Shown here: piece by piece, positions 1,065 to 22,728 of the stretch
How the letters are laid out: each line of letters opens with the position of its first letter
How positions within the stretch are numbered: position 1 is the stretch's first letter
IMG/VR virus record: IMGVR_UViG_3300022874_001633
Coordinates: 1-22,941 of that record
Length of the DNA: 22,941 nucleotides
Reading direction: 5' to 3' (one strand)
From: a virus
Translations under genes and position numbers: made by a program
Notes under the pieces: generated by a model
What the model was told of the DNA's origin: nothing
Database searches by the model: none
The model's input: only the letters and a program-made list of their open reading frames with translations

Positions 1065-2504
1065 TTAAAGATTATACAACAATCCCAACCCATCAATCTC
1101 CGTCGTGGCTGAGTTTAAAATCACTTTTAATTTTAATTTTTTTCCACTTTTAATTGTTTTTGATGTTGTTCTTGGTCCCGCTATTTCTGAATAACTATTT
1201 CCTCCATCCACACTTAGAAATATCTGAGTTTCAGACAAAGAATTCCCTTTAATTCTTGGTTCTATTGCTGTGATTTTCGAAGAGGACTCAAATAAATCAC
1301 TAACCCAAGTTCCTGTTGCGCTTCCATCTGTTTTAAGTGCACCGTCAACAAATTCGGTAGAATTGTGCTCTCCAGAATCAATCGAAAAATCAAGATTCCA
1401 GGAATAATTCATCTTGTTTATATTATTTGGATTTCTTTCTGCTTTTACTTGTTGATCTACTCCTTGAATTAATGAGGAAACTCCAACCTCTTCTTTTTCA
1501 ATCAAACATTCGGTTCTCCATCCTCCATTCTTAATTCCAAAAGAATGGGTAAACTCAAGAATCTTATACTGTCCCATAATCTTTTGTCTTGGGATAAGGA
1601 TCCAGATATTTTCTCCAGGAGTGATTGTTTCCAACCCATAGGATTTTATTTTTGCTTGTGGGACATCATTAGACAATTGAGATAGTTTTAATTCTGCCAA
1701 ATTTTTAACTTTGTCCTCGGTGTTTGAAGATGAATCTTTAAGAAAACTTTCCCTGATTTCATCTCCTTCTGTTGAACTTACTGCAGTATAAATTATTGGG
1801 ATCCCTGAAGAATCTTGTCCCATTGCAGTAATTCTTGTTTTTTGATAAGTGTTATCTGTTCCCCATCCAATTGTTTTTAAAAAATTATCTCCTTCCACAA
1901 TTGCCTCCAATTTATTCGTTGTCGAATTTGCCTCGAAATAATGAAAATCCAAATCATTATCCACATAACAATCAAAGTTTGCATACTTACACAATTCAAA
2001 AATACATTCCCAAAAAGGTTTGTATTCCCATTCAACACTCATTAGTGAATCATCTGCATCAACGTTAGTGTAAGTAAAACCATAAGCCACTGGCAACTTA
2101 TCCACGAGATCTTTTAAGATTTCTCCTGGGCTTTTGTTTACTACAGAATAACACATTAATTGTTCGGTTAACAAATAGCTTCTGTGCCTTCCTTCAATCT
2201 CTAAAAATTGGCCAGCCTCACTAATATCTTCTTTTACAAAATCTATTATTCCCTGAAATTGTAAAGTGGTTGAATCTTCATTATCTGCATAAAATTTTAC
2301 AATGTTTCCCGCAGAATAATCCCCCGTAAATTGACCATGAGCATTGGTAACAATTAAACTGAATGTCCCTATTCCTTTTGTTGCAGGATAAATAAATTTG
2401 CTGTTTACTATTCTTGAAGTTTGATCTACTCCATTAATTTCAACTTTGCAGTGAGTATTTCTTGTTCTTGGAATTGGAATAAAAAGATCTGTGCTATCTC
2501 TCAT
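1065..2504 (-). CDS. baseplate hub / tail-associated protein (gp27- or Tal-like)
   Basis: A 479-residue protein. The N-terminal region (about residues 15-110) is a beta-rich domain carrying K-V-E-I-N-G-V-D-Q-T and G-I-I-D-F-V-K-E-D, a pattern usual in the first hub domain of phage Tal/gp27-like proteins that set the baseplate at the tail tip. The middle (about 110-340) continues the hub fold, with S-P-G-E-I-L-K-D-L-V-D and W-E-C-I-F-E-L-C-K-Y-A. The last 120 residues form a separate beta-domain with S-V-D-G-G-N-S-Y, perhaps a carbohydrate- or fibre-binding module. The ATG at 2502-2504 overlaps the preceding stop as ATGA and has GGGAGG five bases upstream. A longer reading from a GTG at 2531 would lie inside the neighbour and is less likely. 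No peptidase motif was recognised. Confidence 0.78.
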   Translation of the reverse strand: MRDSTDLFIPIPRTRNTHCKVEINGVDQTSRIVNSKFIYPATKGIGTFSLIVTNAHGQFTGDYSAGNIVKFYADNEDSTTLQFQGIIDFVKEDISEAGQFLEIEGRHRSYLLTEQLMCYSVVNKSPGEILKDLVDKLPVAYGFTYTNVDADDSLMSVEWEYKPFWECIFELCKYANFDCYVDNDLDFHYFEANSTTNKLEAIVEGDNFLKTIGWGTDNTYQKTRITAMGQDSSGIPIIYTAVSSTEGDEIRESFLKDSSSNTEDKVKNLAELKLSQLSNDVPQAKIKSYGLETITPGENIWILIPRQKIMGQYKILEFTHSFGIKNGGWRTECLIEKEEVGVSSLIQGVDQQVKAERNPNNINKMNYSWNLDFSIDSGEHNSTEFVDGALKTDGSATGTWVSDLFESSSKITAIEPRIKGNSLSETQIFLSVDGGNSYSEIAGPRTTSKTIKSGKKLKLKVILNSATTEIDGLGLLYNL

Positions 2505-5500
2505 GTAGCCTCCCAGAAGCAATCCACACAAGCAGATTCAATTTGAATTTGGGGTTGTAAAAATCTATTAATTGATGCATTACAACTATACAAATCTACC
2601 CAGAACCATATTTGAGTATGATTTAGATATTCTAAATTTGGTGAAAGAATTTTCCAGGACGTATTAAGTTTATTTCCCTCTGGTTTATCATTTCCAGTTA
2701 TATTCCAAGTGATGTTCATACATGGGTGAGTTTCATTTACTCTTATTGTCAAATTTAAGTTCCTTCCTCCGTAGTTTGTGGTTGTCAAATTAAACAGTGG
2801 TATTGAACTGGTTTGTCCGTAAAATGAAATGTTCTTTTCATTATTTGATCTAGGCATAACAAATATTTTATCTGTCCAATCATACGGCAAATTCTTTAAA
2901 AAACTTGAATAAAAGTATGTAAGATTATAAGAAACATTTAAAGAATAACTCTCATCATGGGCGATAATTTCATAAGTTTGATTTCCTCCTTTGTATACAT
3001 AACTAAAATCATTAAAAGTTATATTCCCTGCATATGTCCCAACAGGAATTGAGACATTTAGGAATCCTTCTGAAGAATTACCCAACTTGGATTGAAAGGA
3101 TGTGTGATTTAGTATGATTGGGTTTGGATCATATGTTAAATTGAAGTTTGTTAAACTAATTAATCCTTGTGAATCAGAAGAGATAACTAAGGGGATCTCG
3201 TAAGTATGATCATAAAGACTCCTTTTTGAAGTAAATGCTGTTGAAATGTTGTGATCTGATAAATCCACTAGAATTGTCCCATTTGTAGAATTTATTTCTC
3301 CTCCAAGAGTATAATTAACAAGTCCTTCTCCTCCAAAATCTAAAGTAATGTTCTTTGGGTTTGACATTGAAGTGTTGACTGTTACCCCACTAATCCACCA
3401 AGTGTTGTTGTGATATACCCCCTCACTTTGATTTAAATTTACTATTGCTTTCCATTTGATGTGTTTTCCAACATCCGAGAAAGAATGTTCAACATTTTCA
3501 GTTACACTTTCCCAATTTTCTCCATTGTCCGCACTTAAATAAAAGGCAAATTCTCCATTTATTCCTCCTCCCCAATATTGGTTTGCCGCATTGAAAGTTG
3601 CACTAGCAATATCTCCATCAGAATCAAAAATTGAATTTGAAACTATTGTGGTATTATCTCTTTTGGATACTGATCTTTTAATATCGTGGACTTTAAAATC
3701 GATATCCATTAGATCGCATCCCTCGGCATATTCATTATTCCAATAGGCCTTATTGTATGTTTCAAAATAAATTCCGTAATTTAAATAATCTGGTTCAACA
3801 TAAAAATCGTTATCTATTGCTTCTTCACTATTCGCATGGTCAGAATATGTCTTACTTAAAACTCCCTCTGTCCAATTGTACATCCACTTATAATTTCCCC
3901 AATCATTATATTCACTTCCATAAGCTATTCCTTTTCCACTTATTTGAACTCTCCAACTACCGTTTTGTTGCTTAGTCATATTTAATATTATATTTTGATT
4001 ATCTATTATTCCTGCATCTTCGGTACAAAAACGCCCTTCACCAGAACATTCTTTCCAAGCACTTTGCCAGACTTGAGTTGCCCCAAGAAAAACTCTTCCG
4101 TTGTTATCATAGCATCTTATATCATTATCATGTCCATTAGCCACATAACTTATATTCATCCAAATATCGTCAGTAGCATGCAAATCAAATTGAGTTATAT
4201 TTGCAAAAATATCATTTGTTAATGTTGCTACTCCGTTATTTGTTCCTTCAAAATCCTCACTAAGAGTTGTATAAAGTCTCAAATATCCTCCAGTTTGACT
4301 TGTTGTTTGTGTGTGATCATAACAATTTTCATTTACACAGTCATAATCTTCATCTGCTTCGGGTAACCATCTTTGATCTGGTGAAGCTCCATCAAAATTA
4401 TCATATGTTTCTATTTTTTTACTTGTGTTTTTTGCAGTTATAAATCCTCCAAATAACATTGCATCTGTTTCAGAAGAAGAAATGTTATTATACTTGCCAA
4501 AAGTATCGTTGAAATTAAACCCATAAAGAGCCCCCACCAGATCTAAAGTAAAATTAAAATCCCCAATATTATCATCTAAATAAAAATAAATTGTTTTACT
4601 TCCGGGATTTGAAAAGGTTAAATTGCTATAATCCTCACTTTCAAAAGTTTTATTCAAATAAATTTGATTCCCTTTTAAAACTCCTTGGTATGCCCTATCA
4701 AAACTGGTAGTGTTTATTTTATAGAATGAAACATCTTTACATTCCCCGTCACAACTCATATTCAACTTCAATAATTCTGCTTCATCATATTTGTGGGTTG
4801 TAAAATTTAATTTCTTTATATCAAAACTACTCAAATTTGTATAATTAATAAAATTTGAAGTACTTCCATTTGCAAAAGTATTTTTAGTGAAATTATTAAC
4901 TGTTAAAATAATACTAACATTCCCATTAGAATAATTAGCTCCAAATTCTGGATGATTAAAATCTATCCATACATTTCCTAATGTACTATTCGCAATTACA
5001 TTTATTCCAGAACCTAATTCTACATTAATTGAATTATTAAATCCTTCAAGTCTTAATTCAATAAAATCTGAAGTTACATAATAAACAATGTTAAAAGCAT
5101 CATAAGTAGAATCCCCTTCAAAGGTTAAATTAACTGGAAATATCCCACTGGAATCAAATAATGTTAAATTATAAATTGGTGAATTACCATTGTTAATTAA
5201 AATATTATTTACATATAATTTTAATTCAACAGAATCATTTACAAATGTACCATTAATATCAATTGAAGAATTTCTCCATATTGTTATATTTTCTTGCCCA
5301 TTATCAAGAAATAAATTTCCTATAAGAGAATCATAAGTAAATGAAGAATTTTCTGTAGAAAATAGTCCAGTACTTGTATTAGCATAAATATTCAAAACAT
5401 AGTCTCCTTCACTTGAAACTTGGGTAGTAACATTTGTAAAATTAGAACAATTCATTTTAGTATTTAAAACTTCTATAGCTCCAGATTTAGTAATATTAAA

Positions 5501-7189
5501 ATAACAATAATCTAAAGTACCACTTGCAGTAATGTTTGCAAAGATATTTAATAATTTTAAATGAATAGTTGTGTTTGGAATTATGTTTGTTATTCTTGGG
5601 TGGTCAACATTAATAACTCTTTGTTCTGTTTCACTATAATTAGAACAATCCCCATCAACATCACAAGCCTGACAAGTCCAAAGTAATGAACTATTAATAG
5701 TAATTGCATCCCAAACCTTAGTATAAAATTGCTGACTACCTTCATGAATCATTCTTGGTATTCCATAATCATCTGTAAAATTCTTTACATTCCAATAATC
5801 TTCTGCACCTGCAAGAGTTTTAACAAAAGACATTGTACCTGTTTGAATTCCCATTAAAGCAGTCATATTTTTTACCGTTTTGTCTCCACTTCCATCATAA
5901 TTTTCAAACTGAATATAATCATTTCCAATATCATTAATTTCATCAGCACTTTTATCTGTTCCAAAAGGAGAATACCAAGTTCCTGATCTACCTTTTAGCG
6001 TTCCATTTGGGATATATAAGCTCCAACGATCTTGGGCTGTTTTTAAATAAAATGTAGCCCAAGTAGAAATTAAATTATCTGTTCCTGATGAAAAATAAAC
6101 ATCAACATAATTATGAGTATTAAAATGGTCAGGATAATTAGTTCTAAGATGATAAAAACTCATATTGGCATCTGTTAAACTACTTGAATAAATATTATTA
6201 ATATTTGTAAAATTTAAAATTCTTGGGCAACCTTCAGGAATACAACTATCTACACCAAAAAATAAAGTTTTAATAACTTTTGCTCTAGATAAATTATAAT
6301 TTGCATCACTTGAATTAACTTTCCATAAACCATTACCTAAATCAGTAATTAAAGTATCATCAACAGCAATCGTACCAGAATCAACAGAATCAGCTTCAAT
6401 AATTAAATAATAATCATCACCATAATTCTTAATTAAATTAAAACTTTGATTAATCTCTAAACTTCCAGAAATATTTGTTAATAAAGATATATTTTGGATA
6501 AATGTTTCATTATTATATGCAGAACAATTAAAAATTATTGAGCCATCTAAATCTACACTATTATTTGCTGGACTATTTAAGGTAACATTTTGTGAAGGAT
6601 TATCCCATGGGTCAAATAATCTAACAGAATAAATTTCATCATTATCTTGTGGTCTATACTTAATTATAATTTTATCACTAACAATTTGTTGAAATACTTT
6701 AGAGTAATAAGATCCTTCTTGCCATTCTATTTTCATGTTGTGTCCAAAGGAAAAAGGGCTTGTGATTATTTGGGTTGGGCCATCATATAAAATATCTCTA
6801 ATTTCATAGTGTACAATTTTGCCTTCACAATTAAAACATTCAAATTTATTTGAGATTGGAAATTGCTCTACTTCTTGATTATCTATTTTAAAAGTATATG
6901 TTTGAATTGTTTTAATTTCATCTTTCCAGAGGGAAGTTCTTTTCGCATAGGCATTATTTGAATCATTCCAATAATCTAATTCTCTGCTTTTTGCCCTCAT
7001 TTTAGTAGTTCCATCATACAAATTAACATATTCGGTTGCAGATTGCACCCAACTTTCATCTTCCCATACAAAATATTTTGCTCTTGTTTTTTCAATAGAA
7101 ATTTTAACTTTCTCAGGCATTAAAAAATATATAGAAACAGATAAAACCACAAGAATTAAAAAGGCCCCCAAATAAATTTTAGTTGCCAT
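2501..7189 (-). CDS. giant N-anchored, sequon-rich multidomain surface or tail protein (1562 aa)
   Basis: A 1562-residue protein. Residues 5-24 form a hydrophobic signal anchor (L-G-A-F-L-I-L-V-V-L-S-V). Residues about 30-200 form a compact domain with paired cysteines (F-E-C-F-N-C-E-G) and F-S-F-G-H-N-M-K-I-E-W, which I associate with DPANN archaeal surface proteins. An Ig-like stretch follows (V-T-L-N-S-P-A-N-N-S, about 201-250), then long Asn/Ser/Thr-rich beta-repeats, a LamG-like region (about 927-1150, beginning Y-D-N-F-D-G-A-S-P), and further beta modules to a Cys-containing C-terminus (C-V-D-C-F-W). I count more than 60 N-x-S/T sequons. The start overlaps the previous stop as TAATG, and the stop overlaps the hub start as ATGA, so it is embedded between distal tail and hub genes. 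A receptor-binding tail protein is plausible, yet the anchor suggests export through the host membrane. Confidence 0.72.
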   Translation of the reverse strand: MATKIYLGAFLILVVLSVSIYFLMPEKVKISIEKTRAKYFVWEDESWVQSATEYVNLYDGTTKMRAKSRELDYWNDSNNAYAKRTSLWKDEIKTIQTYTFKIDNQEVEQFPISNKFECFNCEGKIVHYEIRDILYDGPTQIITSPFSFGHNMKIEWQEGSYYSKVFQQIVSDKIIIKYRPQDNDEIYSVRLFDPWDNPSQNVTLNSPANNSVDLDGSIIFNCSAYNNETFIQNISLLTNISGSLEINQSFNLIKNYGDDYYLIIEADSVDSGTIAVDDTLITDLGNGLWKVNSSDANYNLSRAKVIKTLFFGVDSCIPEGCPRILNFTNINNIYSSSLTDANMSFYHLRTNYPDHFNTHNYVDVYFSSGTDNLISTWATFYLKTAQDRWSLYIPNGTLKGRSGTWYSPFGTDKSADEINDIGNDYIQFENYDGSGDKTVKNMTALMGIQTGTMSFVKTLAGAEDYWNVKNFTDDYGIPRMIHEGSQQFYTKVWDAITINSSLLWTCQACDVDGDCSNYSETEQRVINVDHPRITNIIPNTTIHLKLLNIFANITASGTLDYCYFNITKSGAIEVLNTKMNCSNFTNVTTQVSSEGDYVLNIYANTSTGLFSTENSSFTYDSLIGNLFLDNGQENITIWRNSSIDINGTFVNDSVELKLYVNNILINNGNSPIYNLTLFDSSGIFPVNLTFEGDSTYDAFNIVYYVTSDFIELRLEGFNNSINVELGSGINVIANSTLGNVWIDFNHPEFGANYSNGNVSIILTVNNFTKNTFANGSTSNFINYTNLSSFDIKKLNFTTHKYDEAELLKLNMSCDGECKDVSFYKINTTSFDRAYQGVLKGNQIYLNKTFESEDYSNLTFSNPGSKTIYFYLDDNIGDFNFTLDLVGALYGFNFNDTFGKYNNISSSETDAMLFGGFITAKNTSKKIETYDNFDGASPDQRWLPEADEDYDCVNENCYDHTQTTSQTGGYLRLYTTLSEDFEGTNNGVATLTNDIFANITQFDLHATDDIWMNISYVANGHDNDIRCYDNNGRVFLGATQVWQSAWKECSGEGRFCTEDAGIIDNQNIILNMTKQQNGSWRVQISGKGIAYGSEYNDWGNYKWMYNWTEGVLSKTYSDHANSEEAIDNDFYVEPDYLNYGIYFETYNKAYWNNEYAEGCDLMDIDFKVHDIKRSVSKRDNTTIVSNSIFDSDGDIASATFNAANQYWGGGINGEFAFYLSADNGENWESVTENVEHSFSDVGKHIKWKAIVNLNQSEGVYHNNTWWISGVTVNTSMSNPKNITLDFGGEGLVNYTLGGEINSTNGTILVDLSDHNISTAFTSKRSLYDHTYEIPLVISSDSQGLISLTNFNLTYDPNPIILNHTSFQSKLGNSSEGFLNVSIPVGTYAGNITFNDFSYVYKGGNQTYEIIAHDESYSLNVSYNLTYFYSSFLKNLPYDWTDKIFVMPRSNNEKNISFYGQTSSIPLFNLTTTNYGGRNLNLTIRVNETHPCMNITWNITGNDKPEGNKLNTSWKILSPNLEYLNHTQIWFWVDLYSCNASINRFLQPQIQIESACVDCFWEAT

Positions 7190-7593
7190 TATGCATTCGT
7201 GCTCGATTGTACTAATTTAATTGTCCATGTAACTCTTGTTGGTTCTGCTTGGACTTGGGTGGATGTAAATTCAAGCACTTTGACATTGATAGTTCCTCTT
7301 AAATCATCGACAAATTCATACGGTGCTCCTGCATCAACATCTTGGTGGCCTTGTTGTAATCCTTCAAGGGATTCAACCCAAGTTTTTAAACCTGCGACTG
7401 TATCTGCAATATATCCTCCACTTAAATTAATTGTTTTTACTGTTCCTCCAAAATCAAATACATTCGTGTTTTCGGAATCGTTTAAATATAATGGAATTAC
7501 AGTCAAGGATGAAGATTTGCTACAAGCATTTGAATTGATAACTGCAGAAGATCCATTATGAATTGTTATTCCGTTTAAAGTAGTATTTCCCAT
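7189..7593 (-). CDS. probable distal tail / baseplate-adaptor protein (134 aa)
   Basis: A 134-residue beta-rich protein between the tape measure and the hub. Its core has F-D-F-G-G-T-V-K-T-I-N-L-S-G, then a helix A-G-L-K-T-W-V-E-S-L-E-G-L-Q-Q-G, and a C-terminal strand pair ending W-T-I-K-L-V-Q-S-S. This strand-helix-strand order, with a tube-like K-T-I-x-[IL]-S-G core, resembles small distal-tail or tube-cap proteins found next to the tape measure in siphoviruses. Both ends are translationally coupled: TAATG overlaps join it to the tape measure and to the 1562-residue gene. The structural role is supported by position and fold-like pattern; the precise name (Dit or other adaptor) is inference. 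Confidence 0.6.
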   Translation of the reverse strand: MGNTTLNGITIHNGSSAVINSNACSKSSSLTVIPLYLNDSENTNVFDFGGTVKTINLSGGYIADTVAGLKTWVESLEGLQQGHQDVDAGAPYEFVDDLRGTINVKVLEFTSTQVQAEPTRVTWTIKLVQSSTNA

Positions 7594-8753
7594 TAGATTA
7601 TTCCCCTTTGTTTTAATTGCATCTCTGTTTGTTGGCCGTATCTTCTTGAAAGTTCATCAATGTCTATATCCTGACTAATATTTGCAGTGATTTGAAAGGT
7701 TGGTTGTAAAACCACAGACTTATTTTGTCCATGAGGGATAATTTGCTCTCCTCCATGCACTACTGCTAATTGTGGGCTTCCAACTGCTCCTGGAACCACC
7801 CCTCCTTTTTCAAATCCTAACAATTTTCCTATTGCTTTGATAATTCCTCCTGAAGGATTCAAAAATCCAGAAGGATTAAAGGATTCAAGAGTTTTCTTGA
7901 TTGTGCTTAAAGCATTTGCAACCCCATCAAGAAAACTGATAATTATCCCCCACTTCTCTTTTATTCCATCATAAGCATCATTAAGCATCCCTTTTATGGA
8001 ATTCCAAATTGGCTCAAGCCATTTTCCAATCCAAACAAGAATTCCTTTAATTGTGTCCCAACCACTAAGGAAGAATTCTCCTACCCAATCAAGAGCATCT
8101 TTAATTGTTCCCCATCCTTTGATCAAAAATTCTCCTGCCCAAGTTAATGCCTCGATAATAATAGGCACCATTTTTGCAAGATTTTCTCCCAGAAACTCAA
8201 TAAATGTGATTATTACAGGTAAAATATTAGGAAGAGATTGAATAAATCCACTTAAAATTTGGATTAATGCAATATACAACTCTTGAATTGGTTTTCCGAG
8301 ACTATCAAAGGTTGTTTTAATAACTTCGTTTAGAGGCTCCATTATCCCATCTATCGCCTTGGCCATTTCTGACATTATAGGTCCCATGTGTTTTGCAAGT
8401 TGCCCAAGTAAAATCATCACTGGTTTTAATATTGGAATTAAAGGCATAAACAAAAGAAGAAAAACAGTTTTAAGCAATTCCATAACGGGTTTTATAAAAA
8501 GATATACTGCTTCAATTGCGGTAGCAACAATGGCCAAAAGCCCAGTCATTTTTCCAATTCCTTTTGATAAAAATCCCATCGCCCCTCCATCTCCTGTTTT
8601 AGTTCCGGCAACTCCCGAGATTTTTTTATCTCCAACCCCAATTGTTTTTAATGACTTTTTAATTTGTGAAACTACGTTTTCTCCGATATGTTTCCCACTT
8701 TCTTTTTCTCCCTTAACAGAAATTGGGATTTCTATTTTGAATTTTCCTGCCAT
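7593..8753 (-). CDS. tail tape measure protein (386 aa)
   Basis: The tape measure spans the tail tube and sets tail length. The 386-residue protein has a charged N-terminus, a Gly-rich stretch, and long hydrophobic helices (about residues 70-120 and 165-210). Three tandem 18-residue repeats follow at residues 203-256, of the form L-x-W-x-G-E-F-x-x-x-G-W-x-T-I-K. A conserved tape-measure C-terminal signature is at residues 314-340 (F-E-K-G-G-V-V-P-G ... V-V-H-G-G-E-Q-I-I-P). It follows the G/GT gene, as in nearly all siphoviruses. At about 0.15 nm per helical residue the predicted tail is near 58 nm, which is short. The ATG lies one base after the T-frame stop; no strong Shine-Dalgarno site is seen, so translational coupling to GT is likely. 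Confidence 0.88.
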   Translation of the reverse strand: MAGKFKIEIPISVKGEKESGKHIGENVVSQIKKSLKTIGVGDKKISGVAGTKTGDGGAMGFLSKGIGKMTGLLAIVATAIEAVYLFIKPVMELLKTVFLLLFMPLIPILKPVMILLGQLAKHMGPIMSEMAKAIDGIMEPLNEVIKTTFDSLGKPIQELYIALIQILSGFIQSLPNILPVIITFIEFLGENLAKMVPIIIEALTWAGEFLIKGWGTIKDALDWVGEFFLSGWDTIKGILVWIGKWLEPIWNSIKGMLNDAYDGIKEKWGIIISFLDGVANALSTIKKTLESFNPSGFLNPSGGIIKAIGKLLGFEKGGVVPGAVGSPQLAVVHGGEQIIPHGQNKSVVLQPTFQITANISQDIDIDELSRRYGQQTEMQLKQRGII

Positions 8754-8754
8754 T

Positions 8755-8952
8755 TTATTTAAATTGAGCTCCCTCTATTTTCTTGGATTCTTTTTCCAAC
8801 TCGATAAAATAAATCACCCGATCATATGGGATATTATCTACCTGCTCCGGAGTAAATCCAAAGCTATGTGCAAAAAACCAATAAACAAACTCCTTGGAAA
8901 TCTCAGGATCATCTAAGTAATGTCCTTTTAAGCTTCCTCTGATTCTGAATTT
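8755..8952 (-). CDS. T-like extension of tail assembly chaperone, reached by -1 frameshift
   Basis: This open frame of 65 codons plus stop lies in the -1 frame relative to the upstream G-like gene and ends one base before the tape measure start. It contains no ATG and no plausible early start. It encodes K-F-R-I-R-G-S-L-K-G-H-Y-L-D-D, then helices with F-A-H-S-F-G-F-T-P-E-Q-V-D-N-I-P and a charged end. The F-T-P-E-Q-V-[DE]-x-[IM]-P motif is what I expect in the T part of gpG-T fusions. Read through the A10 run at 8950-8959, the fusion would have about 188 residues (123 from G and 65 from T). It occupies the usual place between G and the tape measure. Confidence 0.75.
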   Translation of the reverse strand, partial: KFRIRGSLKGHYLDDPEISKEFVYWFFAHSFGFTPEQVDNIPYDRVIYFIELEKESKKIEGAQFK

Positions 8953-9320: not shown

Positions 9321-9321
9321 T

Positions 9322-10269
9322 TTAGATATTATCTGCTGCTGCCATTGCTAACTCAACATCGTTTGTATAGATTATGTTTGTGCATGCTCTTGCCCAACCG
9401 CTTACATCTTCTTTTACAACTTCCGTAACGTTCTGAGGTAATGTTTCCTCATTTAAATGAACTCCAGTCAAATTTATATCCAAAATATCCCCATCATCAT
9501 TTGTAAATGTCAATTCAAGTGTTGCAATTTCTGTTCCACTTCCTGCGTCTGGTGCTGATGCGGTATTTGTCCCGTTCATGAAATACGTTAAAAGATCAGT
9601 ATAATCATTAAATGCTGCAGTCATTGAGAAATTGTATTCCCTATTCTTTGCAACCACTCCTGTTCCAAATCTGCTTCCAACCCCATACACCATTTCTGCA
9701 TTATTAACAATTGTTAATTCAAAACTTTGAACTGCTGCAATAGTTGTTCCATCAGACATTTCTATGGATCCATGTGCAAATGTGAAAATTGGTTCTACAT
9801 CTGCCAAATTTGCTACATGTGTAGTGCCTAAATTCTCATATCTATAAATTCCTTCAAGACTAAATTTAAGAGCCTCATTCACTGCTGCTGAAATTGTGCA
9901 CTGATTAATTACACAACCAATCAAATCACTATTAAAATCTGTTGTTCCTAATTCAAAACTTTGTACTACTGTAAAACTTGGGAGAATATTTGCTTCTGTG
10001 TAGGTGTGAGTATAAGCTCCTGTTGTTTCTGCATCTGCATTTGCTCCTAAAACTCCTAATAACCAGTAAGCATTTGAAAGAACTCCATTGATTGTAATTG
10101 CTCCACCATACTGCTTATTTACTGTTGCTGTTGCATTTCTTGCTCCAACCCCAACAATTCTTTCTGCATTGTTGCTTCTTGTAACATTTATCTCAACACC
10201 CTGTCCAAAAGGCATGTAAGTTTCATCACTTTTTGTATGACTTGCTGCAACTGCAGACCATCCATCCAT
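9322..10269 (-). CDS. major tail tube protein (315 aa from first ATG; probably longer)
   Basis: This builds the stacked rings of the tail tube. It is beta-rich, with the tube-protein pattern Y-M-P-F-G-Q-G-V-E-I near residue 20, an internal duplication of V-Q-S-F-E-L (near residues 102 and 181), and Y-N-F-S-M-T-A-A-F-N-D-Y-T-D-L-L typical of the second half of phage tube proteins. Position between terminator/HNH and the chaperone fits. The listed start is the first canonical one, but it has no Shine-Dalgarno site and begins inside the expected N-terminal strand. The frame stays open upstream, encoding A-Q-T-Y-I-G-G-G-G-S-T, back to an ATA codon (10324-10326) nine bases after GGGAGG (10336-10341). 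I think the true start lies there, giving 334 residues. Confidence 0.82.
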   Translation of the reverse strand: MDGWSAVAASHTKSDETYMPFGQGVEINVTRSNNAERIVGVGARNATATVNKQYGGAITINGVLSNAYWLLGVLGANADAETTGAYTHTYTEANILPSFTVVQSFELGTTDFNSDLIGCVINQCTISAAVNEALKFSLEGIYRYENLGTTHVANLADVEPIFTFAHGSIEMSDGTTIAAVQSFELTIVNNAEMVYGVGSRFGTGVVAKNREYNFSMTAAFNDYTDLLTYFMNGTNTASAPDAGSGTEIATLELTFTNDDGDILDINLTGVHLNEETLPQNVTEVVKEDVSGWARACTNIIYTNDVELAMAAADNI

Positions 10270-10322
10270 GTCCTCAAAAGCGTATAAACAAGTTGAACCT
10301 CCTCCTCCTATATATGTTTGTG

Positions 10323-10514
10323 CTATCGTAATTTACCTCCCGATTTTAATTCTCTAACAACTCCTGCCTCAATTTTCATGTGGCAAGATCTACATGAAGT
10401 AACTAAGTTACTCAATGAATTATTAAATGAAATCAAAAAGGGAATTTTGTGATGAATATCTAATCTTACTCCTTTGATTCCACATTCTTGACACTTAAAT
10501 TTATCCCTTTCCAT
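10323..10514 (-). CDS. small HNH endonuclease-like protein (63 aa)
   Basis: A minimal HNH nuclease domain: E-R-D-K-F-K-C-Q-E-C-G (first CxxC), D-I-H-H-K-I-P-F (the double His with the catalytic His), then N-L-V-T-S-C-R-S-C-H (second CxxC and final His of the metal site). The key residues of the beta-beta-alpha-metal fold are present and the two zinc-knuckle cysteine pairs are intact, so activity as a DNA nickase or nuclease is plausible. At 63 residues it lacks any DNA-binding extension. It lies between tail terminator and tail tube, not near the terminase, where HNH genes more often lie. Its end overlaps the inferred tube start, and its start overlaps the 58-residue ORF by 14 bases. A homing-type insertion is possible. 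Confidence 0.82.
   Translation of the reverse strand: MERDKFKCQECGIKGVRLDIHHKIPFLISFNNSLSNLVTSCRSCHMKIEAGVVRELKSGGKLR
10336..10341 (-). promoter_or_regulatory. Shine-Dalgarno site GGGAGG for the tail tube gene
   Basis: GGGAGG lies inside the last codons of the HNH gene, 3, 6 and 9 bases before the in-frame codons ATT, ACG and ATA of the tube frame. No ATG, GTG or TTG lies at a suitable distance in that frame, which is why a non-canonical start is suspected. Confidence 0.5.
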
Positions 10515-11315: not shown

Positions 11316-11375
11316 TTGAATTTTAAACCTCTTGGTTATCCTTTTAAAATTATCAAATTATTTAAAGATTGTTAT

Positions 11376-11732
11376 TCAACTAATCTCTTCGATTATAATT
11401 TGTTTCAATTTGTTTTGGATTGTGTTTCTAATAAAAGGATTTGGTCTTGATCCTGGGTGCCTTACTTTTTTTGCGAAAACAAATTTTCCCTTTCCACCTT
11501 TAAACCTTAATGCTTGTTTATCTTTGGGTTCTATGATGTGTGGAGGAGTCCCAAACTCTACATGTTTTCCATAATCAACCATCCAAATAATTAATCCTTC
11601 CTTCGTCGATTTTACTTTAATAGAATTTACAAGTCTTGAGGTATCTACTGGACAAACAATTGTAAGTTCATTCCACAATCTTCTAGCAATACTTGGTAAG
11701 GCTTTTTCAAGTCTTTCTTCAATTTCATTCAT
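11376..11732 (-). CDS. HK97 gp10-like tail completion / neck protein (118 aa)
   Basis: A 118-residue member of the HK97-gp10 family, which acts at the head-tail joint. Diagnostic features in order are an N-terminal helix (I-E-E-R-L-E-K-A-L-P), V-D-T-S-R-L-V-N-S-I-K-V, V-D-Y-G-K-H-V-E-F-G-T-P-P-H, K-Q-A-L-R-F, and R-H-P-G-S-R-P-N-P-F-I-R before the last helix. These are the hallmark motifs of the family and the length is typical. The start overlaps the head-closure stop by eight bases, so the two are translationally coupled. It is one of the most secure assignments in the window. Confidence 0.92.
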   Translation of the reverse strand: MNEIEERLEKALPSIARRLWNELTIVCPVDTSRLVNSIKVKSTKEGLIIWMVDYGKHVEFGTPPHIIEPKDKQALRFKGGKGKFVFAKKVRHPGSRPNPFIRNTIQNKLKQIIIEEIS

Positions 11733-12345
11733 CTTTTAAGAAAAATAGGTTTACTGTTTTAAACATGGCATTTCCATTGAAGTTTCTAGGGCTTACAGTG
11801 CCTACCTTATAAACTTTAGAATCGTGAGTTATTTTATCATACTTGCTCATTGTCTGATCTTGCTTGATATACATTATTGCATCATAAACTTCTGTCAATC
11901 CAGGTTTATCCAGATTATATGCTTTATTGGGATTTCCGAAAACAACATCAATATCTTCATCCGTTCCATCTGTGTATATTTTATCCCCATGAAAATCTGT
12001 GGTTGTTGTTACAGGAGTTCTAGTTACAGTCACACCAAAATCAGACAAAGGACCATTTATAAAATCATTTCCATCTGCTTGAGATTCTGATCCTGTTATT
12101 TCTTCTGAGTATTGAACTATTATTTTTTGATCATCCCAAACAGGAAGTATAAAAGTGATAACTGTACTTGAAGAATTGTGATCTACGGTGTATTCATCAG
12201 TCAATGCTAATGCCAATCCTGAACTATAAACTAGAAAACCATTTCCTGAAGTTGTCCCTGTGTTTGAAATTGTTAGAGTTCTATTTGCAGTTCCAGTGGT
12301 TCCGGTGCAATCTGAACCATCATAGTGCTCTGTTTTCGTTGCCAT
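11725..12345 (-). CDS. head closure (stopper)-like protein with N-terminal beta-domain (206 aa)
   Basis: The C-terminal part (about residues 90-206) fits a head-closure or stopper protein: T-D-F-H-G-D-K-I-Y, then D-I-D-V-V-F-G, M-Y-I-K-Q-D-Q-T, and Y-D-K-I-T-H-D-S-K-V-Y-K-V-G-T-V-S, the usual strands before a closing beta-strand. The N-terminal 82 residues are a Thr/Ser-rich beta-sandwich (L-T-I-S-N-T-G-T; E-Y-T-V-D-H-N-S-S-S; V-I-T-F) that is extra relative to the family. Position between connector and gp10-like gene supports the role. AGGAGG 12 bases upstream of the ATG is encoded by the last codons of the 1662-residue gene. Confidence 0.68.
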   Translation of the reverse strand: MATKTEHYDGSDCTGTTGTANRTLTISNTGTTSGNGFLVYSSGLALALTDEYTVDHNSSSTVITFILPVWDDQKIIVQYSEEITGSESQADGNDFINGPLSDFGVTVTRTPVTTTTDFHGDKIYTDGTDEDIDVVFGNPNKAYNLDKPGLTEVYDAIMYIKQDQTMSKYDKITHDSKVYKVGTVSPRNFNGNAMFKTVNLFFLKDE

Positions 12346-12350
12346 ATTTT

Positions 12351-15300
12351 TTATAAGCCTCCTTTTCTTTTAAATATTGTTGTCGAAGTAAAAAGTAAAA
12401 GAATTAAATAAATTATTTCACACTCATCACTAAAATAAAAGGTTGTTGCACTTGGAGGTGCATTTCTATTTGATAAGTTTAATTGGGCTGAACAATTAAA
12501 GAATCCACTTGATCCTATCCAACTCAAATTTCCGATAGTTAATGTGCATGGATCTGTAAACTGACATTCATCCTCCATATTCACTTCCCAATTATTTCCT
12601 GCTCCTGGACATACACACGAACCTTGACTAATTATAGAATTTTGTTCTGTACCCAAAATATAACCACTTGTGCTAGTATTTCCTGTTGCAACCAAATCAA
12701 AAGTTCCTGAATCGAGATCAGGTAAAGAACAATTTTGTTCCCAGTGATCAACATTATAAACTGTAGCTCCATGAAGGGTGCAAATTTCACCACCAGCAGT
12801 AATATTTTCTATATTGAATCCACTTATTATTGTTGTACCTTCTTCGGTAAAAGTTAAGTTTACTGTTATATTTTTGGGATAGGTGAAAGTTATTGGATCA
12901 GAAGTTGTAGGTCCAGTAATATCTAAAATAGAACCCCCAGTAATAATCCAGACTTCTGCAAAATCAACATTTAAAAAGGATTGAACATCCCCAGCAATAG
13001 CATTACTTGAAGAAATTAAGTGAACACCATAACTCAATAATCCACTAGTATCTGTAACACTATCAATTATATCTTCGAAACCCTCCCTGGTTTGTTTTAA
13101 GTATAAAGATTTTGTTCTTCCTTTCTTACCAGGAACATAAAGATTTGTTCCAGAATGATTTACAATTTGAGAACTTCTATTATCATAATATTCCCCATAA
13201 TCTTCTGCTGTTTTGGGTTGTAAGATTCCTCCCCAAAAAACATTTGTTGTTATAATATTACTAATATTTTGGGTAACATTTACAACAACATTTATTTGCG
13301 AGTGTTGGTAATTATCTGTAGTATTTTGTAAAGTTCTGGCATAGGCAGAACCACTAAAATAAGAAGCCATATTATTATATTCTGTAGAAGTGAATTCCCA
13401 ATCTAAAGTATCATTATAATCTTTGGCAACTGGAGTTGCAATTTGATAGCTGTCATTCTTTTTATACATCCACATATCTATTCCCCCATGAGTTGAGGGA
13501 TTGTAAATATGTTTAGTTCCCCAATCATATGGGTCCCACCCATCTTTATTATTATCCTTTTCTGTTCCATCATCGTGGGTATCATCATCTGTATCTGATT
13601 CGTAAGGATCGGTTCTTGTTACAAATAATTCTTCATAGTCTGTTATTCCATCACCATCAAAATCTGTTAAATCTAATGCATCCAAGTCCCCTAAATCTGA
13701 ACCATTAATATCATTAAAGATACACCAACTTCTTTGATTTGGAAAAGACATTATTTGCATATTGTCCGAAGTAACTTTGAAACTTCCATTATAAAATTGA
13801 AATTCATCAGCATAATCCCAACCTAAAGAATCATTATAATAAGTTAATAACTTAAAATAAGTTGCATTAATATCTGGGAATGAACTATTTGAATCTGTTG
13901 CAAAAACATTAATTCCTTTATGTGCATCATAATAAGTTTGGGAAAATCCATCACTTTCTTGATAACCAGAATCACTCCAACCAAACCCTGTATCATCCCT
14001 TGTTCCAGTATAATAAATCCAAACATGACAATAAACTTCATCAATAGTTCCAGACCTATATCCTTGTTCATCTAAGAAAAATTCAGACCAAATATCACAA
14101 TGTCTTTCCTCATCACCAATTAAGTTTCCTTCATCATCTTCTGTTGAGTTTCTCCACATTGCACCAAGATCTTGACCATTACCCGTATCAACACTATTTC
14201 TTCTTGAATAACTATTTCCTGTATCTGCATCACTAGAATTTATTGGGGCCCGAAATAACCAGTATCCAGAAACATCTCTTTGAGTTAAATTAACCCAGTA
14301 ACTATTTGTTTCATTAACTATTCTATCACTCGGAGTATATCCATAAACATCTATTGAATAATTTCCTAAAGAAAGATTTGTTGATGAACTATAATTACAT
14401 CTAGCATCTTCATAAGGATCAGAAATATAATGTGTTCCGTTTACATTTATTCCACATCCACCAGTTGCCTTTAATTTTACAGAAGAATCCCAGAAGATAT
14501 CAAATCCTTCATCATAAAATCTTGTTTCATCTTCATCACTAATAGATTCATTTAGTTTCATTGCGGGATAGGAGATAAATAACTTTGGTCTATAAATTGA
14601 ATTACTATCCTCTCTTGGAATAAAAGCATATTTATTATTATCTAAAAATTTAACATGACCTAAATTTAAAACAGTTAAGGAATCAACCACAGCTTCTATG
14701 GGATCAACTATATAATTTGAATCTTGTAATCCAATTGTAAAATTTGAATCGTTTCTCATACAACTTGCATTTGCTTGAATAGTTATTGTAATATTTGTAA
14801 ATTTTCCTGTAGAATCACTAGACATTGTAGGATCACTAGTATTTTCTCGATCCATAGTTAAACTTCCAAAGGCAGTTGCTTCTGTCCAACCTTGATCTGT
14901 TATTAAGTACGCAACATCTAAATCTGGTGAACCTTCTTTTGTCATATACATTTGAAGTTCTGTTGTTCCAATTCCATAATAATCAAACATAGGAATATAA
15001 TCTGAAAGATCCCATTTACTTCTTGGTTCATCATGTTCATCTTTTGTAGCAATATTTTCTTTAATATAAACATCTTCTAAGTTGTAGGAATCATTAAAGA
15101 TACACCATCCGTTTGTACACATTTCTGGAATGGTTGGTTGTTCTGGAACTTCCTCTGATGCTGTTCCATTTATATATCTAATTGTTAAGAGTGGACGTTG
15201 TGCAGTATCTACGTTTTCTTTTGAAAAAACATAAAAATATTCAGAAGCTGAGGCAGTATTATTAAAACCAACTGTAAAATTATCTTCCGCATTATTTCTA

Positions 15301-17339
15301 GCATTCTGAATAGCATTTCCAAGTTGAATAAATTTATATTCATTGGTTTTATCTTGAGCTATTGTAAATAAATTTGTAGTTAAAAAATCTGTCATATTTC
15401 CACACCAATCTGCTCCCGCACATCTATCATTTATTTGTCCTTCTTCCCATGTTTGATTCTCTACAAACCAAACGTCATAAGTTTCAGCATCCTCATCTCC
15501 TGTGTGAAAACCAAACACAGCATTTTCTATAATTGCGTTTGTAGGAATCTCAGAAATATCAAACTTAAAGAAAGGCATTTCACCAGTACCGTCCATAAAA
15601 TCACAATATAAATTTACTTGAGAACCATCTTGAGAAGTTATATCCGCATCAAAGAAATCATCTTCAGTATTGTTTAATAAAATTGGAGTTGAATTTGTGA
15701 TATAATCTGCGTACATACTATAAATAATTTCTGCTTTTGTTGCTGCAGGCCAAGGATCATCTAAAGTAAAGCCTACTGATCTCCACCTACCATTTCCATA
15801 ATCGGCATTATCATAATAAACGTCAGAATCTCCATCTGTAATTTCTCCAACCGCAACTACATAAGATTGATTTGCAGAAAGAGTTAAATTAATACTTTCA
15901 TTTGTATGCCATTGGGGAGTTCCATCTAAAGTAAATCTATATTTATCACTAACTCTATTTTTTAAATGAGATAAATTTGAAGATAAATTATAAATTGCCA
16001 TACTCAATAGAGAAGATCCACTTGTAGTTGCATAAAGACTTAAATTTTCTACCGTATCTGAACTACTTCCAACGTGCATTGAGTTTTTACCAATATGGCC
16101 AATTGTATAACGCATTTGTGTAGAACTTCCACCAATAGAAGTAACCCCAAAAGTAGGACCAATTATTGAACCTCTTTCCAAATATCCTTGTGGACAAGTT
16201 ATTTCCCAAGTTCCATTTGCAATAGTCTGGTTACACCATGCTTTCTCTCCATTTGGATCAATTACAAAAGAACTTTCAATATTAAAGGCCTTTCCAGTTT
16301 TATATTCATTTCCAGACATAGAAGAATGATAACAAGCATAAGAATTTACAAGATTTGCAGGTCTATGTTCAATTGAATTCCCCCCTTTATCCCAACAATC
16401 AGTTTCATTACATCCTGTGGGATTTGGACTTTCGTGAAGAACATCCAATCCTGGTTGATAATAACATTCTAAATTTGATAAATCATAATCAAAAATAAAA
16501 TTGTTTGTAGTGGGTTTCTTTTTCAAAATTAATTCCCATTCTAGAGTGTTATCATCAACCATGTACCAAGAGGTTGTATATTCATCGTAACCATAAGATA
16601 AGTTTGCAATATCTTGGCCTTGGCCTTGTGATCCAGGAGTTATTTCAGAAGCAACGTTTGGAAGAGTAACTTTAAATTCTGATTCTCCCCATTTCTTTAA
16701 ACTAAATCCTGCATTGGTTGTAGATTCTCTAACACTAACTATAAAATCTTTTGAAGGATTATCATAGTCATAAGCAACTCCAGAATTGTCTGTATTTATT
16801 GCCCATTTATTTTGGGAGATTCCTACCCCTTCCCAAGTAGGATCTAAATATTCCTCATCCTCATAATTTACTGCCCATTTAACCACATCTGAAGGTTCAT
16901 TTTTATAAGCAATTACTCTAAATTCATAATCTCTATCCTTCCTTAAAACATAAGAATATTTTACTCCTTTATTATTCGGGGCCCCACACCATGTTCCGGT
17001 ACAAGTTTCATTAAGAGGAATATCTCTCCATCCTGTACCCCAACTTCTTTGAAGTGTCCAGGATTCAACTCCGGGAGCAAATTTAAAAATAGTCTCTCTT
17101 CCCCAAGGATCATAATCTGTGGGATAAATGAAAATATTTTCGTTAGCAGTCAAATTTACATAAGCATAACAAGGATCAGAAATATTTCCAGCACAGGTTT
17201 GATCTCCCGAATACCCAGTAATTATTATTGCTCCAGTAGAAGATAAATAAAGAAAAATTCCCATTATAAGAGTTCCTGTAACTGCTCCACTACTTACAAG
17301 CCATTTCTTTACAGTGCTACTATATACTCGTTTTGCCAT
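12351..17339 (-). CDS. giant, doubly anchored, sequon-rich multidomain protein (1662 aa)
   Basis: The start chosen is ATG 17339, just after the preceding stop; a longer frame from 17405 would overlap that gene. Residues about 13-40 form a membrane segment. Regions in order: an archaeal-type domain (about 40-170; D-P-W-G-R-E, W-R-D-I-P-L-N-E-T-C, C-G-A-P-N-N); a beta-sandwich (about 170-395) with L-E-W-E-L-I-L-K-K-K-P and K-T-G-K-A-F-N-I, seen in metagenomic phage structural proteins; an anchor-of-fold region (about 400-555); two DNRLRE-like modules (about 560-725 and 750-925); a calcium-type D-x-D-x-D-G block (about 1225-1265). A C-terminal membrane helix followed by K-R-K-G-G lies at the end. 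It is Cys-rich with many N-x-S/T sequons. It occupies a tail-neck position yet looks like a membrane-tethered surface protein. Confidence 0.72.
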   Translation of the reverse strand: MAKRVYSSTVKKWLVSSGAVTGTLIMGIFLYLSSTGAIIITGYSGDQTCAGNISDPCYAYVNLTANENIFIYPTDYDPWGRETIFKFAPGVESWTLQRSWGTGWRDIPLNETCTGTWCGAPNNKGVKYSYVLRKDRDYEFRVIAYKNEPSDVVKWAVNYEDEEYLDPTWEGVGISQNKWAINTDNSGVAYDYDNPSKDFIVSVRESTTNAGFSLKKWGESEFKVTLPNVASEITPGSQGQGQDIANLSYGYDEYTTSWYMVDDNTLEWELILKKKPTTNNFIFDYDLSNLECYYQPGLDVLHESPNPTGCNETDCWDKGGNSIEHRPANLVNSYACYHSSMSGNEYKTGKAFNIESSFVIDPNGEKAWCNQTIANGTWEITCPQGYLERGSIIGPTFGVTSIGGSSTQMRYTIGHIGKNSMHVGSSSDTVENLSLYATTSGSSLLSMAIYNLSSNLSHLKNRVSDKYRFTLDGTPQWHTNESINLTLSANQSYVVAVGEITDGDSDVYYDNADYGNGRWRSVGFTLDDPWPAATKAEIIYSMYADYITNSTPILLNNTEDDFFDADITSQDGSQVNLYCDFMDGTGEMPFFKFDISEIPTNAIIENAVFGFHTGDEDAETYDVWFVENQTWEEGQINDRCAGADWCGNMTDFLTTNLFTIAQDKTNEYKFIQLGNAIQNARNNAEDNFTVGFNNTASASEYFYVFSKENVDTAQRPLLTIRYINGTASEEVPEQPTIPEMCTNGWCIFNDSYNLEDVYIKENIATKDEHDEPRSKWDLSDYIPMFDYYGIGTTELQMYMTKEGSPDLDVAYLITDQGWTEATAFGSLTMDRENTSDPTMSSDSTGKFTNITITIQANASCMRNDSNFTIGLQDSNYIVDPIEAVVDSLTVLNLGHVKFLDNNKYAFIPREDSNSIYRPKLFISYPAMKLNESISDEDETRFYDEGFDIFWDSSVKLKATGGCGINVNGTHYISDPYEDARCNYSSSTNLSLGNYSIDVYGYTPSDRIVNETNSYWVNLTQRDVSGYWLFRAPINSSDADTGNSYSRRNSVDTGNGQDLGAMWRNSTEDDEGNLIGDEERHCDIWSEFFLDEQGYRSGTIDEVYCHVWIYYTGTRDDTGFGWSDSGYQESDGFSQTYYDAHKGINVFATDSNSSFPDINATYFKLLTYYNDSLGWDYADEFQFYNGSFKVTSDNMQIMSFPNQRSWCIFNDINGSDLGDLDALDLTDFDGDGITDYEELFVTRTDPYESDTDDDTHDDGTEKDNNKDGWDPYDWGTKHIYNPSTHGGIDMWMYKKNDSYQIATPVAKDYNDTLDWEFTSTEYNNMASYFSGSAYARTLQNTTDNYQHSQINVVVNVTQNISNIITTNVFWGGILQPKTAEDYGEYYDNRSSQIVNHSGTNLYVPGKKGRTKSLYLKQTREGFEDIIDSVTDTSGLLSYGVHLISSSNAIAGDVQSFLNVDFAEVWIITGGSILDITGPTTSDPITFTYPKNITVNLTFTEEGTTIISGFNIENITAGGEICTLHGATVYNVDHWEQNCSLPDLDSGTFDLVATGNTSTSGYILGTEQNSIISQGSCVCPGAGNNWEVNMEDECQFTDPCTLTIGNLSWIGSSGFFNCSAQLNLSNRNAPPSATTFYFSDECEIIYLILLLFTSTTIFKRKGGL

Positions 17340-17346
17340 TTTTCCA

Positions 17347-19218
17347 TTATGCTGCCCCGCAATCCTTCCCTCCTGAGGGCCAGTATATACATGAATCTGT
17401 AGCATTTAAATACCAAGTGCATGAAGGAGAATTCATACAAGTTATATTAATTGTTGTGGCATCAAATTGGATACTGATTGGTTCATAAGTCTCATCAGCT
17501 AAACTTTCATTCCAAGATAAATTTCCTGGAGTTAAAGCATCGTAAGTGGCATTGTAGGTTGAAAGCCATGCATCATTATAGATATTATATGTAGCTGTGG
17601 TTTGATTATAATTCCACTTTATTTCTGAATATAATGTATCTGCAAAACTTTCGTTCCAGGAGGAGTTATCTCCAGTTGTAGAATAACCTTGATCTAAAAC
17701 CCAACCTTTATTATCCCAAGTTGAGTTCCACATTGTAAAAGTGTTTAAACTTTGATTGTATCCCCACTTTATCTCTGCGTAAAGATTATCTGCAAAAGAT
17801 TGGTTCCAAGAAGAATTATCTCCTAATCCAGCAACTTGCCCATCAACATAATTTTTCATTGAAGTGTTAAAAACCACATCTTGCCCATCAACATAGTTTT
17901 TTATGGAGGTGTTAAATATGACATCTTGGGCATCCGCATAATCATTAGATAGGGTGGTATGGTTATAACCCCACTTAATTGCAGAATAAAGAGTTCCTGC
18001 AAAAGATTGGTTCCAGGAAACGTTGTCATCCCCTCCAACTCCTCCCTGATCCCATGTACTGTTCCACATTGTAAATGTTGCTAAACTTTGATTGTAAGCC
18101 CATTTTATTTCTGTATAAAGAGTATCAGAATAAGATTCATTCCAAGATAAATTTCCAGGGGTAGAAATTAAAGAGTCTACCTCGCTTTCATTATAAAATC
18201 CTAAACTCATCATGTTGTTGGTGGTATTAATTTTTAATATTAATGCATCAGCATAGTCGTTCGCCTCTGTGGTTTGATTATAACCCCATTTAATTTCTGC
18301 ATAAAGAGTATCAGAATAAGATTCATTCCAACTTGCATTTCCTCCTGTACCGAATGCTGAATACAAAGTGTCTGCAAAAGATTGGTTCCAAGTTACATTA
18401 TCTCCGGAAACAGAAATATCCGCATAAAGAGTATCTGTTAGAGATTGATTAAAAGATAAATTTCCCCCTGTAGTTCCTATTCCTGCATATAAACCATCAG
18501 CATAAGTTTCATTCCAACTTTGATTATTATATTTATTTGTAGTCCCTTCAGTTAAATCATTTGTTGTTTTAGTTCCTAACCAAGTTGTTAAAAAACCTGT
18601 TAAAGTATTATTAAATAAGGTATTCCACAAAGTGGGAATTATTTCATTTATATCCATATATAAAGTATCAGCATAACTTTCATTAAAAGAAATATTGCCT
18701 GAAGCAGAACCTATTGGTGCATAAAGAGTATCAGCATAAGTTTTGTTCCAATCTGCCCCATAAAGAATAGGAGCGAATAAAATCTCTGCAAAAGATTGGT
18801 TCCAGGAAACGTTGCCAGTACCAGTATTGTCTGTAGCCCAAGTAGAATTCCACATATTAAATGTCGCTAAAGATTGATTATAATCCCATTCTATTCCTGA
18901 ATAAAGAGTATTTGCTAAAGACTCATTCCAGGAAACATTTCCTCCTGTTCCAATAGCAGAATAAAGAAGATCAGCATAACTTTCATTCCATGATAAATTC
19001 CCTGAATTAGAACCTATAATAAAATCTTGTATTGTATAGCACGTAGTTGCATTACAATAGTATGATGCACTTATATTTGTGGCATTTATAATTTGATAAA
19101 CATTTCTTAGATTAATGTCCCCTTGGGGTGTAAATTCTGCTGATCCTACAATTCCCATTATAAAAATCATTCCAGTCAGAACTAAAAATATTCGATTAAT
19201 TTTTCCACTTGTCCTCAT
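17347..19218 (-). CDS. secreted repeat protein with fibre-like N-x-S-W-N-[EQ]-S repeats (623 aa)
   Basis: Residues 1-26 form a signal peptide (basic start, L-V-L-T-G-M-I-F-I-M-G-I-V-G-S-A). Residues 74-581 carry about 14 copies of N-x-[ST]-[WF]-N-[EQ]-S-x-A-D-x-L-Y-x-x-I, often followed by W-x-Y-N-Q-[ST]. Most copies hold two close sequons. Interspersed are M-W-N-S-T-W blocks and a tandem pair F-N-T-S-x-K-N-Y-V-D-G-Q. The C-terminus has paired cysteines and C-I-Y-W-P-S-G-G. The A-D-x-L-Y repeats recall phage tail-fibre repeats. GAGGG ten bases upstream supports the ATG. It lies between the gp6-like connector and the 1662-residue gene. A glycosylated fibre or surface spike is my best guess; function is not shown. 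Confidence 0.72.
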   Translation of the reverse strand: MRTSGKINRIFLVLTGMIFIMGIVGSAEFTPQGDINLRNVYQIINATNISASYYCNATTCYTIQDFIIGSNSGNLSWNESYADLLYSAIGTGGNVSWNESLANTLYSGIEWDYNQSLATFNMWNSTWATDNTGTGNVSWNQSFAEILFAPILYGADWNKTYADTLYAPIGSASGNISFNESYADTLYMDINEIIPTLWNTLFNNTLTGFLTTWLGTKTTNDLTEGTTNKYNNQSWNETYADGLYAGIGTTGGNLSFNQSLTDTLYADISVSGDNVTWNQSFADTLYSAFGTGGNASWNESYSDTLYAEIKWGYNQTTEANDYADALILKINTTNNMMSLGFYNESEVDSLISTPGNLSWNESYSDTLYTEIKWAYNQSLATFTMWNSTWDQGGVGGDDNVSWNQSFAGTLYSAIKWGYNHTTLSNDYADAQDVIFNTSIKNYVDGQDVVFNTSMKNYVDGQVAGLGDNSSWNQSFADNLYAEIKWGYNQSLNTFTMWNSTWDNKGWVLDQGYSTTGDNSSWNESFADTLYSEIKWNYNQTTATYNIYNDAWLSTYNATYDALTPGNLSWNESLADETYEPISIQFDATTINITCMNSPSCTWYLNATDSCIYWPSGGKDCGAA

Positions 19219-22727: not shown

Positions 22728-22728
22728 A

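Follow-up and report, generated by a model that had tools for sequence, protein, structure and literature searches.

Modular giant proteins with export signals in the head-tail operon of a probable DPANN virus, one of them exchanged with tail-fibre genes

The closest described counterparts of the proteins considered here come from tailed viruses of sheathed archaea, whose SH-like proteins carry a signal peptide, resemble the host envelope protein and have been proposed to act at the host surface at egress (PMC11576556); in that 2024 work, they were sought as amyloid-like sheath mimics of 150-350 aa in viruses of sheathed methanogens and ANME-1 (PMC11576556). A second point of comparison is T5 Llp, a small superinfection-exclusion lipoprotein that is made early and acts on the receptor used by the virus (PMC9586334), and a third is the archaeal thread pilin Saci_0406, a Sec-exported, N-glycosylated beta-sandwich (PMC9715654; PDB 7pnb). 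In the literature that we searched, no glycosylated, exported tail fibre of an archaeal tailed virus was found. Here, we describe a modular family of viral proteins, unnamed in the libraries searched, that appear to be exported and are tied to tail-tip exchange. Like the SH-like proteins, they belong to a tailed archaeal virus and one of the three under study (slot 1) bears a signal peptide, slots 2 and 3 having membrane anchors instead. Unlike them, the family spans 600-2500 aa (623-1662 aa in the present virus, outside the SH-like range), is mostly membrane-anchored and rich in N-x-S/T sequons, has probable DPANN hosts, and includes one member locked into a tail-tip cassette. The likeness to T5 Llp concerns proposed function only, both being exported virus proteins that act, or would act, on a receptor; unlike Llp, the giants lie in a structural operon and measure hundreds to thousands of residues.

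The window, that is, the whole stretch of DNA analysed, corresponds to a complete IMG/VR virus record (22,941 bases), whose genes lie on the minus strand (Table 1). Its operon is siphovirus-like (Caudoviricetes): tube, XkdN-like chaperone, tape measure and hub stand in canonical order, and gp10/neck genes are present too. In order of transcription, head proteins are followed by a 280-aa head-completion-like protein, the 623-aa and 1662-aa proteins, a head closure protein (206 aa), a gp10-like and a 213-aa protein, and then by tail tube, chaperone, tape measure, a 134-aa protein, the 1562-aa protein, the hub and small membrane proteins. The initial annotation had pointed to three giant ORFs inside a tail operon that take about half of the window, and both statements hold (11.55 kb of 22.9 kb, all on the minus strand). 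Its picture of ORFs fused by overlaps or one-base spacing fits the 1562-aa gene, which has one base in common with the 134-aa gene before it and, at its other end, runs into the hub gene (ATGA at 2504), but around the other two the spacing is tight without fusion, with gaps of 45 bases (280-aa to 623-aa gene), 7 bases (623-aa to 1662-aa) and 5 bases (1662-aa to 206-aa). The 1662-aa ORF opens at 17405; the start that matches relatives is the ATG at 17339, which has GGAGG upstream. Relatives were gathered with the tail tube (55 IMG/VR loci) and the wider comparison set comprised about 120 related viral loci; a tail-tube scan of named genomes found no provirus. Pfam and PHROGs gave nothing above noise for any of the three proteins, and no fibre match. 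The whole 1562-aa protein as query in the viral scan had no match either, probably because its middle is too variable; module-level alignments worked.

Table 1. Features of the window, with positions in the 22,941-base record.
Feature	Coordinates	Strand	Remarks
623-aa slot 1 protein	17347..19218	-	predicted to be exported, fibre-like; 47 sequons; signal peptide conserved in homologues
1662-aa slot 2 protein	12351..17339	-	module A, variable middle, conserved C-terminal module; 55 sequons
Anchor module A	16820..17339	-	alignments A2/A5; predicted model
1562-aa slot 3 protein	2501..7189	-	module B, variable middle, conserved C-terminal domain (CTD); 79 sequons
Anchor module B	6500..7189	-	alignment A3; 19 viral loci
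Slot-3 CTD	2501..3019	-	common to nearly all slot-3 proteins compared
Baseplate hub, short type	1065..2504	-	PHROG 196 hub, 1.4e-7; partner gene of the slot-3 giant
134-aa tail protein (p134)	7189..7593	-	conserved order tape measure - p134 - giant - hub
Tape measure protein, short (386 aa)	7593..8753	-	PHROG 305, 2.9e-13
Tail tube protein	9322..10269	-	PF18906, 2.1e-22; query for gathering relatives

Each giant begins, as had been noted at the outset, with a signal or membrane segment, as judged from hydrophobicity and the conserved cleavage site. The slot-1 protein opens with MRTSGKINRIFLVLTGMIFIMGIVGSA, a Sec-type signal peptide directly followed by EFTPQGD, so that the mature part would begin EFTPQGDINLR; it contains repeats of SWNESYADTLYA and a conserved C-terminus with Cys. 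Its homologues, gathered by the motif xFTPQG[DN]I, number 26 distinct proteins including that of the window, and in 24 of these (the window among them) a signal peptide stands directly before the motif and the site between A and xFTPQG is kept. The remaining two, from lineages L014 and L010, have no signal peptide and start at the motif itself (MSDFTPQG); the longer of them shows an intermediate sequon enrichment (about 1.6). Slot-1 proteins also contain the fibre-like motifs YGNGSQLTGV and GRVGIGT. The slot-2 protein starts with a basic tail of ~20 residues and a TM segment. At its far end, a conserved module (about residues 1571-1641) precedes a hydrophobic stretch and a basic end; this C-terminus is also found in L008, L057 and L060. 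The slot-3 protein starts with MATK and a membrane anchor of ~18 hydrophobic residues.

The sequon richness reported in the initial annotation withstands two controls: the 623-, 1662- and 1562-aa proteins hold 47, 55 and 79 sequons against 15, 23 and 29 in shuffled copies (z 9.3, 7.6 and 10.9; the first count is inflated by the protein's own repeats), that is, 2.3-3 times the expectation, and the reversed motif [ST]xN occurs 26, 22 and 27 times. All other window proteins have z <= 1.7, and observed/expected ratios (O/E) are near 1 for hub, tube, neck and connector proteins, the long hubs of relatives being likewise unenriched. When every ORF of at least 250 aa in the about 120 loci was surveyed, the 354 proteins without an N-terminal hydrophobic segment had a sequon O/E of 1.09 and a forward/reverse ratio of 1.04, against 2.19 and 2.12 for signal or anchor proteins (2.35 and 2.35 for those with module A; 2.19 and 2.29 for those with module B). 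An export signal combined with sequons above chance, in exported proteins only, is what is expected of archaeal N-glycoproteins, and the AglB/STT3 oligosaccharyltransferase is present in 52 of 60 genomes of the likely host phylum, which we infer for the window virus itself. Export of the giants is thus well supported, by signal or anchor segments conserved in relatives, by a directional sequon enrichment limited to proteins with export signals and by AglB in the likely host phylum. We read the sequon pattern as selection for glycosylation outside the membrane, and the giants are probably coated with sugars. The comparison of sequons with the reversed motif is in itself a simple, genome-only export test for archaeal viruses.

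The anchored giants are built from exchangeable parts. Module A consists of a basic tail, a TM segment and a beta domain of about 130 aa that ends in DPxW; it is 44-68% identical to slot-2 and slot-3 proteins of other viruses, and its predicted model (pLDDT 80) has N-terminal helices and beta strands, with no match standing out when the fold was compared to the PDB. Module B has a short inner tail of only 4 residues, a TM segment and a domain of about 170 aa that ends in RLFDP. There is no clear sequence relationship between A and B; a third version, A', is a divergent A. The modules swap between slots: the window has A in slot 2 and B in slot 3, L008 has B in slot 2 and A' in slot 3, and A occupies slot 3 in L017, L044 and L051. 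Counted by position, slot 3 held module A in 20 cases and module B in 14, slot 2 in 7 and 1, and the place behind a fibre-like gene in 8 and 2, the other 18 and 2 cases lying in unassigned contexts. Docking of the tail tip on a conserved inner tail is unlikely, given that module B is without that tail and yet interchangeable with A in one slot. Both modules are nearly virus-specific: in the cellular search set, 371 genomes of the phylum of the one named match (Nanoarchaeota), A matched 3 and B 1, most of these being marginal or viral. The clear cellular case is a fusion of module A with a DNase I-like endonuclease/exonuclease/phosphatase domain, encoded by a Nanoarchaeota gene (L058:3090-4280) on a chromosome-like contig with FtsZ and Spt5-like genes, showing that module A serves in a cellular setting as well. 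A transposase-like gene adjoins that gene, and capture from a virus is possible.

At the other end of the slot-3 proteins, a conserved CTD closes those of the window and of some 20 loci irrespective of the anchor (L082 and L099 fit poorly and were omitted from alignment A4). Two sequons recur in it, N[VI][TS]xYGQT and CxNxT, and its Cys residues are conserved; its profile matched no other kind of viral protein in the viral set, and its sequence matched no PDB chain. The predicted model is a beta sandwich (pLDDT 80) whose structural matches, many of them donor-strand pilins, reach Z 5.5-7.3 (CsuA/B 7.3, CfaB 7.1, bundling pilus 7ueg 6.2), all below or at the null level of 7-8 that unrelated models also attain in such lists. 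The thread pilin 7pnb aligns over 128 residues at Z 6.2, which is not decisive, and unlike thread pilins the CTD forms the terminus of a much larger, anchored polypeptide. A pilin-like fold of the CTD is therefore a lead. There may also be a distant relationship, weak as it is, to secreted host proteins: in Nanoarchaeota genomes, the CTD has distant relatives among small signal-peptide proteins (hhalign probability 94; the reverse search recovers the giant of L096), with a patchy distribution (6 of 371 genomes). CTD-like host proteins stand in tandem in G018 and G029. The tandem genes at L136:9479-11117 and G029:C16:57036-58875 encode proteins of about 182 and 340 aa, those of L136 with signal peptides, and could represent a surface structure of DPANN archaea. 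Elsewhere in the family, slot-3 giants contain LamG (lectin-like) or DUF2341 segments. Some are broken: in L013 (9228-12657), a 181-aa module-A' piece and an 813-aa remainder flank a 189-aa ORF that looks like an inserted gene, and the giant is also split in L080 (855+705) and L096 (295+1302).

The slot-3 giant lies directly before the hub gene, a position equivalent in about 20 other loci, and it is here that the tail tip is exchanged. Relatives with tubes 81-87% identical to that of the window carry either of two cassettes, in which tape measure and p134 are followed by giant and short hub or by long hub, f132 fibre and collar. The two hub types share homology (E down to 3e-16). The canonical fibre and collar genes (f132, PHROG 4176 tail fiber; collar, PHROG 1800) lack an export signal and do not resemble the giants in sequence. 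In the neighbourhood of the hub, a giant stands without a fibre gene in 16 loci and a fibre gene without a giant in 17-18; both occur in 1 locus and neither in 2 (Fisher about 6e-7, kinship ignored). Over whole records, the f132 fibre gene occurs in 6/6 long-hub viruses and the collar in 3/6, against 0/15 giant viruses for each. Cassette type changes 6 times on the tail-tube tree (bootstrap 5-6), at least 2 changes being forced by well-supported branches, which argues for exchange and not descent alone. As a matter of sequence, then, the operon encodes modular, sequon-rich proteins with export signals, and its slot-3 protein travels with the short-type hub in place of canonical tail-fibre genes; this exchange places the slot-3 giant in host recognition and hints at an unusual viral handling of the cell surface. 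A general rule that fibres and giants always exclude each other was rejected: exclusion is limited to slot-3 giants beside the hub, with L099 as an exception. Anchored slot-2 giants coexist with canonical fibres in L011 and L020, and in other virus groups anchored giants occur together with fibre-like genes (e.g. L075, L076, L092, L095 and L097) or directly after f132-like genes (10 loci). Relatives lacking the slots, which the initial annotation had set against its own proposal, do exist in part: L022-L024, with a tube nearly the same as the window's, have no slot-1 or slot-2 proteins, and L022 has a canonical fibre gene and no slot-3 giant. Slots 1 and 2 are thus accessory and the giants exchangeable, not required for tail building; they form a large modular family in dozens of viruses, for which the anchor modules and the CTD are usable markers.

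Two contigs bear on the host. L126, a contig binned in a genome of L058's phylum, is viral by its SU10-like capsid protein and tape measure; it shares the slots of the window, in that signal-peptide proteins precede its connectors and a module-A-like 397-aa protein follows its tape measure. Together with L058, it points to DPANN hosts, and the window virus probably infects these tiny archaea, likely members of the phylum Nanoarchaeota. What would the giants do there? The initial annotation had proposed either proteins of the host surface or tail components put together through the membrane; the data are compatible with both, and the question is now concrete as a localisation test between tail parts assembled across the membrane and a host surface remodelled from a tail operon. 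Our preferred reading, at about an even chance, is that the giants are viral glycoproteins displayed by the infected cell, and that the slot-3 protein, as part of the host-recognition cassette, acts on the surface structure seen by the tail tip. The giants would cross the membrane by Sec, those of slots 2 and 3 remaining anchored with the N-terminus inside and a long ectodomain outside; host AglB would glycosylate them, and they would be displayed on the DPANN cell late in infection. Less surely, the slot-3 giant would act from outside on the very structure recognised by the tail tip, which it would cap, mask or remodel; progeny would thereby be spared loss to infected cells and debris, and release would be eased. 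The giant would then be the receptor-side partner of the hub, which could explain why giant and hub are exchanged together. We lean towards display because the proteins are anchored, the CTD has relatives in hosts, anchors are interchangeable whether or not they have an inner tail, and a comparable strategy has been proposed for the SH-like proteins (PMC11576556). Several points count against it: a giant that itself served as the fibre would account more directly for the replacement of fibre genes, T5 Llp and similar surface-exclusion proteins are small and early, the pilin-like Z is at most 7.3 and the relationship of the CTD to host proteins is weak and patchy.

The strongest competitor, to which we give roughly one chance in three, is that the giants are the receptor-binding fibres of the virus, exported, glycosylated and joined to the tail tip (or to the neck for slot 1) at or after release. 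The mutual exclusion of slot-3 giant and fibre genes, near the hub and in whole records, the repeated cassette swap on the tube tree, the anchored giants placed directly after f132-like genes, the LamG lectin segments, and the fibre-like motifs of slot 1 with its two signal-less lineages all speak for it, but we know of no route by which a tailed virion acquires a membrane-anchored ectodomain, and the slot-2 giants found alongside canonical fibres indicate that anchoring as such is no fibre substitute. Its more specific form, in which host-recognition fibres are made through host secretion and N-glycosylation, sugar-coated ectodomains replacing cytoplasmic fibres and meeting the tail tip outside or across the membrane, seems to us somewhat unlikely, although glycosylated fibres completed outside would, if true, be the more remarkable result. 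It is improbable that the giants are accessory cargo, captured surface genes set between tail genes by chance: module A fused to a host nuclease, CTD relatives in hosts and the absence of slots 1 and 2 from some relatives would suit this, but the anchor modules are nearly confined to viruses, and the slot-3 position and CTD are fixed across divergent viruses, with the giant exchanged along with hub type. Ordinary cytoplasmic tail components, with a structural helix at the N-terminus and sequons as a by-product of Asn/Ser/Thr-rich composition, are very improbable in spite of the tail-operon position and the signal-less slot-1 homologues, since shuffles and reversed-motif counts rule out composition, a signal-peptidase-like site is conserved in 24 homologues and hubs (long ones included) and tubes are unenriched, which contradicts the cytoplasmic alternative raised in the initial annotation.

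Some smaller features of the operon deserve mention. Between the tube and 213-aa genes, a 63-aa ORF (10323-10514) starting MERDKFKCQECGIKGVRLDIHHKIP is HNH-endonuclease-like by eye, and this junction holds extra ORFs in L013 and L045 too. Two small membrane proteins follow the hub, one of 95 aa cut by the record end (1-285), whose relatives have about 200 aa and lie downstream of the hub region, and one of 61 aa, a holin-like size (845-1030). In the head region, a 362-aa protein with a beta-helix look (21690-22778) has no Pfam or PHROG match and is kept upstream of the connectors in L011, L019 and L020/L059. Relatives repeatedly have, next to head genes or slots 1-2, a small TM-anchored protein of 100-140 aa that contains Cys (L007:2804-3214, L017:4262-4654, L011:2145-2474).
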